From: a virus | DNA length: 64,000 bases | Reading direction: 5' to 3' (one strand) | Virus record (IMG/VR): IMGVR_UViG_3300032268_000986 | Location: 234,259-298,258 of that record | In this document: in pieces, positions 10,519 to 17,327 of the stretch | How the letters are laid out: each line of letters starts with the position of its first letter | How positions within the stretch are numbered: position 1 is the stretch's first letter | Notes under the pieces: generated by a model | What the model was told of the DNA's origin: nothing | Seen by the model: only the letters and a program-made list of their open reading frames with translations | The model's database searches: none | Translations under genes and position numbers: made by a program

Positions 10519-10743
10519 TTAGAACAATTTTTTAGGAAGCTCTTGCTCGCGTAGTTTTCGCTGCCAGCGTTTTTTTGCAGCAGCGGCCTTGAGTTTGCGT
10601 TCAGTAGTGGGCTTGACGTAGCATTCACGGCTGCGCAAATCATCCAGCAGTCCCGATGTTTGAATTTTTTTCTTGAACTTGCGCAGGGCCTTGTCTACGT
10701 TGCCATCTTGCACCAGTACTGATCTACCGTGTAATTTAGTCAT
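10519..10743 (-). CDS. rpsU: Ribosomal protein bS21 homolog
   Basis: A 74-aa basic protein matching bacterial bS21: VDKALRKFKKKIQTSGLL, then CYVKPTTERK and a Lys/Arg/Ala tail. bS21 sits on the 30S platform near the anti-Shine-Dalgarno region and is loosely bound, so a phage copy could exchange onto host ribosomes and bias initiation. bS21 homologs are known from other phages. It overlaps the clpX stop by 8 nt and so is probably co-expressed with it. Confidence 0.9.
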   Translation of the reverse strand: MTKLHGRSVLVQDGNVDKALRKFKKKIQTSGLLDDLRSRECYVKPTTERKLKAAAAKKRWQRKLREQELPKKLF

Positions 10744-11938
10744 TTGTTGTGTTGAGTGCGCAGGGATTGTTGATCAAGTCAGTACCAATATTGACTTGTT
10801 CAATCCCTTGCTCACGATATTTAACCAAATTGAACATATGAGGCAACAGCACTCGCTCAAGTTCGCTGTGCAGACCACGAGCTCCTGTACGGCTGGTCAT
10901 GGTTCGTTTTGCAATGACCTCTAGTGCAGGGACATCAAAATTTAATTCAACTTTGTCTTGGGCAAACAACCAACGATATTGTGAAACATAGTTGTGTTTT
11001 ACATCAGTGAGAATCTTTATAAGATCGTCCTGTGTGAGTTCTTGCAGGGCCACCCAACTGGGAAAACGTCCCACAAACTCAGGAATCATGCCAAACTTGA
11101 TCAAATCTTCAGGTGTGGTCTGTGTCAAAGTTGCTTGTTCTGTGTGCTTGGTTAGATCAGCCGCAAACCCAATTGAAGTGCCCTTGACTCGATTCTTGAC
11201 CACAGTGTCCAAGCCTACAAATGCGCCGCCGGCAATGAACAAGATGTTTGTGGTGTCAATTTCAACCATGTCGCCCGATGGGTGTTTGCGATTACCAGTG
11301 GGAGTTACTCTGCACTTGGTGCCTTCCACCAGCTTGAGCAGGGCCTGTTGCACACCTTCCCCTGACACATCTCGAGTGATACTGGCACTCTCGCTGCGCC
11401 GACTGATCTTGTCAATTTCGTCAATGAACACAATACCGCGTTGTGTTTTTTCTACGTCGCCGCCGGCAGCGGCAAACAGTCGACTGATCAAACTTTCAAC
11501 GTCGTCGCCCACGTACCCTGCTTCTGTGAGGCTGGTGGCATCGGCGATCACAAACGGAACGTCAAGGTAACGAGCCACACTGCGAGCCAGCAGTGTTTTG
11601 CCTGACCCAGTGGGGCCCAGCATGAGAATATTGCATTTTTCAATCTCAGTGTCAGATTTCAAATTGTTAATGCGTTTGTAGTGGTTGACAATGGCCACTG
11701 CCAATACCTGCTTGGCCTGGTCTTGACCGATAACATATTGGTCAAGATGTGCTTTAATACGAATTGGATCCAGCGTGGGTTCAGAACTGGTCGCTGGCAA
11801 TACATCATCAGTCAGCAATGAACCGCAGAGGTCTACACACTCGTTGCAAATTGCAACAGTGTCGCCAACAATGAGTTTGGTCACTGCATCTTTGTGTTTG
11901 CCACAAAAACTACAGGTATCAGGTATGTCTTTTTTCAT
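10736..11938 (-). CDS. clpX: ClpX ATPase
   Basis: A 400-aa, full-length ClpX-type unfoldase, close to the bacterial length of about 420. It has the N-terminal zinc domain (C9, C12, C31, C34), Walker A GPTGSGKT (108-115), pore loop GYVG (141-144), Walker B FIDEID (171-176), a GNRKHP loop matching the RKH substrate loop, and a C-terminal AAA+ small domain with TGARGL. ClpX feeds substrates to ClpP. No clpP is present in the window. It overlaps the upstream membrane-protein stop (ATGA) and the downstream bS21 start. Confidence 0.95.
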   Translation of the reverse strand: MKKDIPDTCSFCGKHKDAVTKLIVGDTVAICNECVDLCGSLLTDDVLPATSSEPTLDPIRIKAHLDQYVIGQDQAKQVLAVAIVNHYKRINNLKSDTEIEKCNILMLGPTGSGKTLLARSVARYLDVPFVIADATSLTEAGYVGDDVESLISRLFAAAGGDVEKTQRGIVFIDEIDKISRRSESASITRDVSGEGVQQALLKLVEGTKCRVTPTGNRKHPSGDMVEIDTTNILFIAGGAFVGLDTVVKNRVKGTSIGFAADLTKHTEQATLTQTTPEDLIKFGMIPEFVGRFPSWVALQELTQDDLIKILTDVKHNYVSQYRWLFAQDKVELNFDVPALEVIAKRTMTSRTGARGLHSELERVLLPHMFNLVKYREQGIEQVNIGTDLINNPCALNTTND

Positions 11939-13338
11939 TCGGTATGATGATTGTTAGATTTAGATTCCAGGCGTTGCGCAATTTGTTCTTGCTCACTCTC
12001 ACTCAGGAAATCAGGATCGTATTGCCCTTCAGCCAGCAATGAGATCAAGTGATCAATGTATGCAGTATCGTAAGTATAACTGTCAGCTATGGTTTTGTCA
12101 ACTTCAATCCACTCATCACCATTGTGTTTGAACACACGATTAGGGATTGAATCAGTTCTAATATAAGTATCACCGCGAACAGCGTCCTGTGGAAACTCTG
12201 CGCCAAACCCAGTCTTGGAAGTGGGCTCAATTAATTTCATCCAAGGCAACTCATCTATTTCTCCCAGTCTGTGTCGGAATCTTTGTCCCTTGAGTGTGAG
12301 ATGTGGGTTGAGCTCTTTCCATTTTTTAATGGCAGCTTTTTCTGTTGGGGTTGTATCGTGATGATCGTCGGGCTCTTCTTCAGCATCTTGAGTTGGTTGC
12401 TGAGGCTGGTGGACCATGGGAGTTAAATTTTCAAAATGCACAAATGGTTTGTTTAGATATGGGTGTTGTTCCAGTATAGATTTTTCTTCAACTGCCACTT
12501 CTGGAACCACCGGCGTTGGGGTAACAGTACAATCTTCTTCAGTGGGCGATTTTTCGACGTCTGGTTCCTGGCGTTTTTTATTTTCTCGTGCCCACTTCAT
12601 GCTTTCAGTTGAAGCCAACACCATCATGATGGCCAGGGGATCAAACACTATCACCAGCAAAATAATAACCCAACGCACTGCTCGTTCCAGCAAGTTGGCA
12701 TCAGGGTCGTCGCCGTAAATCAAGGCCGCAATGTATTTTATTGGACCTACTTCGGCTTCCACCTTACGTATTTCCGCTCGTATGGGTGCGGCTTCTTCAT
12801 TGAGAGCACCAATGAGTTTTTGGTTGGCTTCAATGCTCTTGGCTAAAGCAGTCCTGTCACGGGCCTGGGCTCGACGAATAGCATTAGATTTAGTGGCACC
12901 TTCTTCTGTTGTGCTCCTGGCCATGACTTGATCAACAGCCTCATCCATTTGGCGAAGTTGCCGGCGATCAGCTTCGATATTCTCTCGTGCTGTTTTGATC
13001 TTTTCATCATAAACTGCAATTTTGCTCTGCACATCACCGCTTATTATGTCCTGGTCCAAGTGGGCCTTGCTCAAGAAACCAAAAATACCCATGGAGGTAA
13101 TCACCATGAGCATAGCCACTGCTGGCACAAGATACAGTTTCATAGCCAGGCGGCACTGGTTCCAGTACTCATGCAGCCACACAGTTACCACTACCTTGGC
13201 AACCTCTAACATACCGCCCATGACAATGATGGGAATGACTGCTGATGCAAAAATTGCAGTCAAACCAATAATGCTGTACCAGGCAGCAATGGCGCTGAGA
13301 CTCAGCGCCACCAGTAAGGTTATTATACTAAGGAGCAT
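11935..13338 (-). CDS. Membrane protein with coiled coil
   Basis: A 467-aa protein with hydrophobic segments near residues 1-22, 28-50, 68-90 and 222-245, separated by a long charged helical region (about 95-200) likely to form a coiled coil. The C-terminal 200 residues are soluble, acidic and rich in Pro, Glu and His. Not recognised. The layout suggests an inner-membrane sensor or scaffold with its tail in the cytoplasm. It is ATGA-coupled to clpX, which may mean a link with proteolysis, but this is inferred from position only. Confidence 0.6.
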   Translation of the reverse strand: MLLSIITLLVALSLSAIAAWYSIIGLTAIFASAVIPIIVMGGMLEVAKVVVTVWLHEYWNQCRLAMKLYLVPAVAMLMVITSMGIFGFLSKAHLDQDIISGDVQSKIAVYDEKIKTARENIEADRRQLRQMDEAVDQVMARSTTEEGATKSNAIRRAQARDRTALAKSIEANQKLIGALNEEAAPIRAEIRKVEAEVGPIKYIAALIYGDDPDANLLERAVRWVIILLVIVFDPLAIMMVLASTESMKWARENKKRQEPDVEKSPTEEDCTVTPTPVVPEVAVEEKSILEQHPYLNKPFVHFENLTPMVHQPQQPTQDAEEEPDDHHDTTPTEKAAIKKWKELNPHLTLKGQRFRHRLGEIDELPWMKLIEPTSKTGFGAEFPQDAVRGDTYIRTDSIPNRVFKHNGDEWIEVDKTIADSYTYDTAYIDHLISLLAEGQYDPDFLSESEQEQIAQRLESKSNNHHTE

Positions 13339-13342
13339 GCAT

Positions 13343-13666
13343 TTATTTATTGTTAGTTTCGGTCAGCATCACTGCATACTTTAGACTGCACCAGGTGCCA
13401 AACGTGGGATCTGGCACTTCAAACCACACTCGAATTGTTTCTTTTTTCCAGTTGTTGTCTAGTCTACGTTTCACATGCGGTTGTCCGCGCCAGCCAGTTT
13501 TACCAAACATGGCATTGGCTTCGCGAATGATGTTGTACCAGGATTTTACTCCTGCCCTACCCACCGCAATATTGAACCAAATACGGTGCATGACCGGGGG
13601 CGTTAATTTAAGAGGGCTGAGAGGCTCAGACATACTCAACGTAGAGGTTTGAACTTCAACAGACAT
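13343..13666 (-). CDS. Hypothetical protein
   Basis: A 107-aa basic, Trp-rich protein, unrecognised. AAAGGA precedes ATG 13666 by 5-6 nt. It is the first gene behind the perfect sigma70 promoter at 13855-13883, with a structured leader of about 180 nt between them, so it is likely either regulated by that RNA or merely downstream of an independent ncRNA. Confidence 0.55.
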   Translation of the reverse strand: MSVEVQTSTLSMSEPLSPLKLTPPVMHRIWFNIAVGRAGVKSWYNIIREANAMFGKTGWRGQPHVKRRLDNNWKKETIRVWFEVPDPTFGTWCSLKYAVMLTETNNK

Positions 13667-13848
13667 AGAGTCCTTTCACTGTTTGTGTCCTTAATGAGCA
13701 TACACCGGACCAGTGCCCGGTTTTGGCCGAAACCAAGGACAGTGCCTCATCCTATGTGATTTACATCTACATGCCACGGAACCAGCGGGCCCGGGTTGTC
13801 GACTCACCCCGCCAGGTCCATTAGATAACACGATTTCCCCGATCATGC
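13667..13848 (-). ncRNA. Candidate structured leader or small RNA
   Basis: A gene-free stretch of about 180 nt, noticeably more GC-rich than its surroundings. On the minus strand it folds well by eye. GGACCTGGCGGG pairs with CCCGCTGGTTCC with one mismatch and two G-U pairs. TGTCCTT pairs with AAGGACA, enclosing small hairpins such as TTGG-N6-CCAA and CCGG-N8-CCGG. The segment starts about 7 nt after a consensus promoter. No tRNA cloverleaf, known riboswitch core or intrinsic terminator was recognised. It could be a 5' leader of the gene at 13343 or a separate small RNA. Confidence 0.5.
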
Positions 13849-13854
13849 CATGTA

Positions 13855-13883
13855 ATTATACACACAGATCAGTGAAGTGTCAA
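13855..13883 (-). promoter_or_regulatory. Perfect-consensus sigma70 promoter
   Basis: Minus-strand TTGACA (13883-13878), a 17-nt spacer and TATAAT (13860-13855). Every consensus base is present. It would start RNA near 13848 and read into the structured segment, which makes it one of the strongest predicted host-type promoters in the window. Confidence 0.8.
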
Positions 13884-13899
13884 TTGATTTGGAAACTTA

Positions 13900-14361
13900 T
13901 TAAGTTTTAGAGTTCTTGCGTGTCATTTCACACACCAGCAAGAATTTGTTGTAGGCTTCTTGCACAGCTGGGTGAGTCATGAGTTTGGCAGCTTCTTTTT
14001 GAAGCGCCGTTACACCTGCTTCCACAACGTCATGAGTGCTTGCACCGTTCAAAGTGCAAAGTTCATCGCCAAACTCTTTGGCCAGTTGGTGCCATGCACG
14101 TTGTTGACCCAGTGTGAGCGGAGTTCTCTGTGGGCGCAGTTCGCTGGCCTTGCGCATGGCTTCACACATGGCATCTTCGGCCACACGTCCAGCCGCAATC
14201 ATGGCAGCATAATTGGGATCAATATGGTAACGACGACTCTGTCCGCCGGGGTAGCACATCACAAGATGTGTACCTTGAGAGAAACTGTCCAAGTACTCAC
14301 TGTCGTACTCACTCACAGGCACATACCTGCGGCCACGTTTTTCATAATAGATCTTTTTCAT
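13900..14361 (-). CDS. Hypothetical protein
   Basis: A 153-aa protein. The N-terminus is basic (MKKIYYEKRGRRYVPVSEY) and the middle is helical. I do not recognise a family. It starts with an overlap (ATGA) of the preceding ORF and is the last gene of the ligase operon before the structured region. Confidence 0.6.
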   Translation of the reverse strand: MKKIYYEKRGRRYVPVSEYDSEYLDSFSQGTHLVMCYPGGQSRRYHIDPNYAAMIAAGRVAEDAMCEAMRKASELRPQRTPLTLGQQRAWHQLAKEFGDELCTLNGASTHDVVEAGVTALQKEAAKLMTHPAVQEAYNKFLLVCEMTRKNSKT

Positions 14362-17298: not shown

Positions 17299-17327
17299 AT
17301 TATAGCAAATTGTGAATAATTGGTCAA
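17299..17327 (-). promoter_or_regulatory. Early promoter cassette, copy 1
   Basis: Minus-strand TTGACC (17327-17322), 17-nt spacer, TATAAT (17304-17299), followed by an AAAAAGGAGCC leader before the ATG at 17267. One of six near-identical cassettes in the window. Confidence 0.8.

Follow-up and report, generated by a model that had tools for sequence, protein, structure and literature searches.

What does a perfect promoter transcribe when the next 180 nt or so hold no gene? The question arises in a stretch of 64,000 nt, here called the window, which is part of a 342,865-base IMG/VR virus record and belongs to a giant phage. The locus separates two genes; read on the minus strand, it precedes a small gene for 107 amino acids. 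A sequence-only reading had seen here a full-consensus TTGACA-N17-TATAAT, and had suggested that what follows may be a phage small RNA or a regulatory leader for that gene. The promoter is as described, with 12 of 12 consensus positions on the minus strand (13883-13855). In window coordinates, the promoter and the genes behind it are:

13855-13883, minus strand: sigma70 promoter, with TTGACA (13883-13878), a 17-nt spacer and TATAAT (13860-13855)
13343-13666, minus strand: small gene, 107 amino acids, very basic (pI 10); codons 1-27 are shared with the RNA element
11935-13338, minus strand: gene for a 467-amino-acid membrane protein with weak similarity to DUF4407, the next gene downstream
10736-11938, minus strand: ClpX-like AAA+ ATPase that carries a C4 zinc finger of its own; it follows immediately downstream, in the same orientation

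The promoter is kept among relatives: of 73 distinct upstream sequences, 61 show 12 of 12 consensus positions and 8 show 11 of 12, so it is not due to chance. The gap from the -10 box to the first base of a helix which we call P0 is 6 nt in 54 of these sequences and 8 nt in 19. We therefore predict that transcription begins with the first paired base or next to it; read off from the promoter position, this would be at about 13848 (G1). The transcript would be made by a strong promoter of host type. Throughout the record there are 35 sites of the form TTGACN-N17-TATAAT, all on the minus strand; the plus strand and a reversed control have none. Copies in the window are found at 17327, 17783 and 18239 (minus strand), with a spacing of exactly 456 nt. 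Many of the 35 sites also have a common spacer (CAATAATTCCCAATTTGC-like) and some copies are identical, which suggests a repeated family of phage promoters with a conserved spacer.

Relatives in IMG/VR were first collected by a search with the 107-amino-acid protein, which gave three. L003, whose protein has only 47% identity and which has another gene upstream, still shows a clearly similar leader. A pattern taken from the most conserved part of the RNA gave 15 IMG/VR stretches. A covariance model was built from 12 sequences, and 80 loci were fetched through the 467-amino-acid neighbour gene; the model detected the RNA in 54 of them, in nearly all cases some 350 nt ahead of that gene. A looser second pattern gave 63 IMG/VR stretches, nearly all recognised by the model; the match in L152 was rejected as chance. 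Downstream of each copy recognised by the model stands the small gene, in sense; the one exception is L138, where the contig ends, and no complete copy recognised in the IMG/VR pattern scan lacks the gene. The distance to the 467-amino-acid gene is about 3.5 kb in L085 and L087, where RNA and small gene are still together, so the RNA is linked to the small gene and not to its neighbour. The window's own record has one RNA copy per genome. The 467-amino-acid gene is itself widespread in these phages, with at least 593 IMG/VR relatives, and its protein has distant relatives among cultured phages, for example in the jumbo phages XacN1, RAS14 and SCTP-2.

Rfam 15 gave no match in the window, and none even at E 5 over 13600-13950; loci of a diverged clade (clade 2, described below) only gave Rfam scores far below the gathering thresholds. 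Neither the RNA nor the small gene has a match in 50,697 records of cultured phages, and ARAGORN detected no tRNA or tmRNA in the window. A bacterial home was considered from six pattern matches in GTDB and discarded, as none of them was scored by the RNA model. Three of the six (L169, L170 and L171) are ordinary tRNA genes of CPR (Paceibacteria-type) genomes with GUGGCA...AAGGUUGAGACA, which fit the loose pattern; we take these three matches as chance. Structured RNAs of giant phages have hardly been described, and this one was found neither in Rfam nor in the literature that we searched.

The conserved element has a size of about 265 nt. Its parts, in the window's copy, are as follows:

13588-13848, minus strand: whole conserved RNA element, from G1 (13848, predicted start) to codon 27 of the small gene
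13837-13848, minus strand: 5' strand of P0, GCAUGAUCGGGG, transcript nt 1-12, with 12 of 12 pairs to 13599-13588
13588-13599, minus strand: 3' strand of P0, CCCCGGUCAUGC, within the gene, coding nt 68-79, codons 23-27
13756-13831, minus strand: P1 helix, 13831-13822 with 13769-13756, enclosing P2
13776-13821, minus strand: P2 hairpin, GGACCTGGCGGG with CCCGCTGGTTCC, helices 5 and 6 of the alignment
13697-13775, minus strand: pseudoknot strands, GGCA (13775-13772) with UGCU (13700-13697)
13677-13744, minus strand: P7 helix, CACUG UCCUU (13744-13735) with AAGGA (13692-13688) and CAGUG (13681-13677), alignment helices 8 and 9
13723-13736, minus strand: P4 hairpin, UUGGU-UUCG-GCCAA, alignment helix 10
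13705-13720, minus strand: P5 hairpin, CCGGG...UCCGG, alignment helix 11, where the window's copy is offset
13666-13677, minus strand: Shine-Dalgarno-like GAAAGGA, starting at 13677, then the spacer up to the ATG, which begins at 13666; between P7 and P8
13628-13650, minus strand: P8 hairpin, wholly in the coding region, coding nt 17-39, alignment helix 12

Comparison of the relatives shows a predicted fold in which P1 encloses P2, P7 encloses P4 and P5, and the pseudoknot, P8 and P0 complete the structure. The Shine-Dalgarno sequence and the start codon are enclosed by P0; P7 ends at the Shine-Dalgarno sequence, and the pseudoknot is just upstream. Both stems named from the window alone have their place in it: the first is P2, the second (TGTCCTT with AAGGACA) is a portion of P7, and both vary with compensation in relatives. 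A P3 hairpin (AGGA/UCCU) of our first model clashes with P7 and fails in L003; P7 was put in its place. In clade 1 GAAAGG is conserved. Many unpaired positions are conserved as well, for example UAGGUUG, AAAAC and GUAUGCC.

In P0 the 5' end of the transcript pairs with codons 23-27. Leaving L031 apart, 80 distinct IMG/VR relatives have 12 of 12 pairs in 58 cases, 11 in 21 and 10 in one. The two strands occur in 29 distinct combinations, with a mean of 11.6 pairs versus 9.9 for strands mixed across loci. The place of P0 in the gene is constant in complete relatives: nt 79, or nt 76 where one codon is absent. Its sequence may be much changed, as in L036 (GCAUUGCCUGUG/CACAGGUGAUGC), L039, L029, L054, L060 and L037; codon 25 may be Val, Pro, Ser, Ala, Gly or Ile across relatives, with the pairing kept. 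Predicted single-sequence ensembles give P0 a probability of at least 0.94 in all but one of 16 loci, the exception being L098 with 0.69. In L031, the weakest relative, P0 seemed to be missing, and the model predicted an earlier start there. With the start re-anchored at GCAU after the -10 box, a partner with 12 of 12 pairs appears at coding nt 82; among 45,000 position pairs in its surroundings only two reach 12 of 12.

The structure of the RNA is well supported by covariation, the check in related phages which the sequence-only reading had proposed. The alignment has 44 distinct sequences, and the structure drawn on it has 62 pairs, placed by hand and read partly from these same sequences: 91.2% of the cells are paired, both sides change at 43 pairs and the covariation score is 0.380. 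Shuffles, which ignore relatedness, give 80.1% paired cells, 29.7 pairs with both-side changes and a score of 0.181; none of 500 reaches the observed values. In slid versions of the structure 31-41% of the cells are paired, with 35-41% for shifts of one or two columns. These slid controls, together with the prediction in L031, argue against an artefact. Both-side changes are found in 8 of 9 pairs of P1 (helices 3 and 4), in 4 of 5 pairs of P4 and in all four pairs of the P8 stem (coding nt 17-20 with 36-39), where 97.2% of the cells are paired. The pseudoknot (helix 7), drawn in this alignment as GGCA with UGCC, has 98.9% of its cells paired and is compensatory in L060 and L211.

The segment had been described as strongly structured. 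Folding of that segment by itself is ordinary (z -0.45, 63 of 200 shuffles as good), so strong structure could not be claimed from the window alone and rests on the comparison. Only with the gene's first 79 nt and a few more bases added does the folding stand out (z -2.99, 1 of 200 shuffles as good); the segment had therefore been ended too early, and the element continues to 13588. The other descriptions fared unevenly. A GC content of 0.53, compared with 0.46 for the window, makes the segment GC-rich, but mildly so. It is not the longest gene-free block: the window has seven longer gaps with a cut-off of 60 amino acids for open reading frames on the minus strand, although some of them may hold short or plus-strand genes. 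Two copies of a GCACTG(G)TCC unit are not kept in relatives; the second falls in the P5 hairpin, which reads GGCUGAUACCC in others. We looked in relatives for a loss of the pairing or a coding sequence at this place; the pairing is conserved and the segment is not coding. An open reading frame of 51 amino acids (13691-13846) was discarded as a coding segment: the distance from G1 to the ATG varies from 175 to 196 nt, not in threes, the frame is not kept, and the pattern of changes is compensatory and not codon-like.

The small protein belongs to no PHROG or Pfam family. In its family the pI is 9.3-10.0, and 9.6-11.0 for the core. Its predicted fold is beta-alpha-beta-beta-alpha-beta, with moderate confidence (pLDDT 79); fold searches with it only gave weak ferredoxin-like matches and no reliable relative. 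The beginning of the gene is constrained at synonymous sites: among the closest pairs, synonymous differences per site (pS) are 0.05 in codons 1-27 and 0.35 in the remaining codons; over all pairs the values are 0.29 and 0.65. Some codons are frozen, Leu19 being CTT in 80 of 80 sequences and Thr22 being ACG in 79 of 80.

Clade 2 (L174-L190) has the same plan, with a leader of about 236-256 nt and a later start codon. A motif of about 20 nt, GUAUCNAANNGGAGAYCUCU, homologous to codons 2-8, is untranslated in clade 2, whereas it is coding in clade 1. The 5' end pairs there with the codons just before a conserved histidine (homologous His codon, coding nt 46); most of these helices have three to four internal mismatches, while those of L174, L185 and L189 are near-complete. 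In L182-L184, L188 and L190 the promoter is unlike that of clade 1, with an extended -10 box of TGCTAAAAT type and no clear -35 box, and the RNA starts right after a hairpin similar to an intrinsic terminator. Other relatives (L094, L193-L198, L205 and L208) have no RNA. Their start codon is placed 5-6 nt past the -10 box, so that their mRNA would be leaderless or nearly so, and the conserved core forms the very start of the protein, with no N-terminal tail. A comparison of L211, with the RNA, and L193, without it, shows that the upstream gene end is common to both. Thus the RNA and the N-terminal tail come and go together.

We consider it probable that the RNA is a cis-acting, pseudoknotted leader which controls translation of its mRNA and extends from the first transcribed base to codon 27. 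The expectation of a regulatory leader agrees with this: the element is immediately upstream of the gene, in sense, in every complete relative, and it pairs with its codons. In the predicted anatomy the Shine-Dalgarno sequence and the start codon come to lie in a closed junction made by P0, P7 and P8, and most likely the fold would limit ribosome loading until it is opened. The closed form would hinder or trap initiating ribosomes, something would stabilise or open the fold, and a ligand bound to the conserved core would set the amount of protein. The start region is predicted to be accessible to an intermediate degree rather than closed. No terminator-like site was found in the leader; transcriptional attenuation is therefore unlikely, and terminator-based attenuation was rejected in favour of translational control. 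We also rejected a switch in which UCCUU sequesters the Shine-Dalgarno sequence in competition with AAGGA. It fits the window, but not the relatives: in clade 1 UCCUU varies with its P7 partner, while GAAAGG stays. The ligand is the least certain step: tentatively, the likeliest one would be the small and very basic gene product, which would then repress its own translation. Such autogenous repression, as known for S4, S15 and T4 gp32, would be the most economical reading, with a small molecule as the main rival; we only infer RNA binding by the protein, since the structure searches gave no confident match.

If the core binds a small molecule, the RNA would be a riboswitch controlling translation of the small gene and of the operon behind it. 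A conserved, aptamer-like RNA does lie in cis upstream of a gene; the size, the pseudoknot and the many conserved unpaired positions are typical of aptamers, and with no intrinsic terminator the control would again be translational. As a rule riboswitches control a range of genes for transport or enzymes, but this RNA is tied to one gene with no known metabolic role, has no Rfam riboswitch match even at E 5, and reaches codon 27 with its conserved fold, which is unusual for a riboswitch; we find this rather unlikely. A stable or trans-acting RNA, or part of an RNA-protein particle, whose 3' third happens to share the start of the gene, would explain why the promoter is perfect and why a 12-bp helix joins the ends, protecting and closing the RNA as in many stable RNAs; the motif which is coding in clade 1 and untranslated in clade 2 is also in its favour. 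It is improbable: a gene of the same family follows every complete copy in sense, the start codon and the Shine-Dalgarno sequence are inside the element, no copy was found without the gene, and the window's record has a single copy per genome. A free-standing small RNA, the other early suggestion, is not supported either, because the conserved fold needs codons 1-27. P0 could simply hide the 5' triphosphate from RNase E and RppH and give a long-lived mRNA with no ligand, and it does begin at the predicted start in 73 of 73 sequences (6 or 8 nt after the -10 box); however, a short hairpin would suffice for this, and the pseudoknotted core and P8 are left unexplained, so that we regard it as very improbable. 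That the RNA is an antiterminator of the put kind, acting on the very polymerase that transcribed it, is hardly credible. It would be located directly after the operon promoter, like putL of HK022 (PMC9378689), but its length of about 265 nt and its pseudoknot differ from the two stem-loops in about 70 nt of a put RNA, and antitermination would not require its tie to the codons of a single gene.

Autogenous control of translation can be joined with the other features in a proposal which, as a whole, is still more tentative: a new class of leader, used by uncultured giant phages of a large group, where nt 1-12 of the transcript form a conserved helix with codons 23-27, the fold has written an N-terminal tail of 25 residues, and the small protein controls its own synthesis. 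It would be a clear case of an RNA structure dictating the N-terminus of a protein, the relatives without the RNA having no tail. Natural sequences already supply the helices, a predicted start site and compensatory variants, which makes the proposal directly testable.

Several known systems resemble this RNA. The E. coli operators of the alpha operon (S4) and of rpsO (S15) are also pseudoknotted leaders around a ribosome-binding site: the S4 operator contains the first cistron's ribosome-binding site, and in S15 the pseudoknot embraces the Shine-Dalgarno sequence and the start codon (PMC10931766). In both the repressor is a small RNA-binding protein; here the likeness would extend to repression by the gene product, although that product is no ribosomal protein, the element has about 265 nt with a 12-bp helix from the 5' end to the codons, and there is no sequence or Rfam match. 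The mRNA leader of T4 gene 32 also has a pseudoknot, which is used for translational autocontrol (PMC3014915). It is a small 5' pseudoknot and gp32 binds single-stranded DNA, whereas our element is large, multibranched and extends into the coding region. The put RNAs, with putL of phage HK022 directly after its promoter, are also structured phage RNAs immediately downstream of a promoter (PMC9378689); they act on RNA polymerase with no pairing to a coding region, while here the RNA pairs with codons. Orphan riboswitch candidates share a conserved cis RNA, a pseudoknot, covariation and no known ligand, but here a single uncharacterised phage gene is involved and the fold depends on coding sequence. 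By analogy, the RNA would work most like a pseudoknot operator around the ribosome-binding site, and the 12-bp helix between its 5' end and the codons is the feature which sets it apart.
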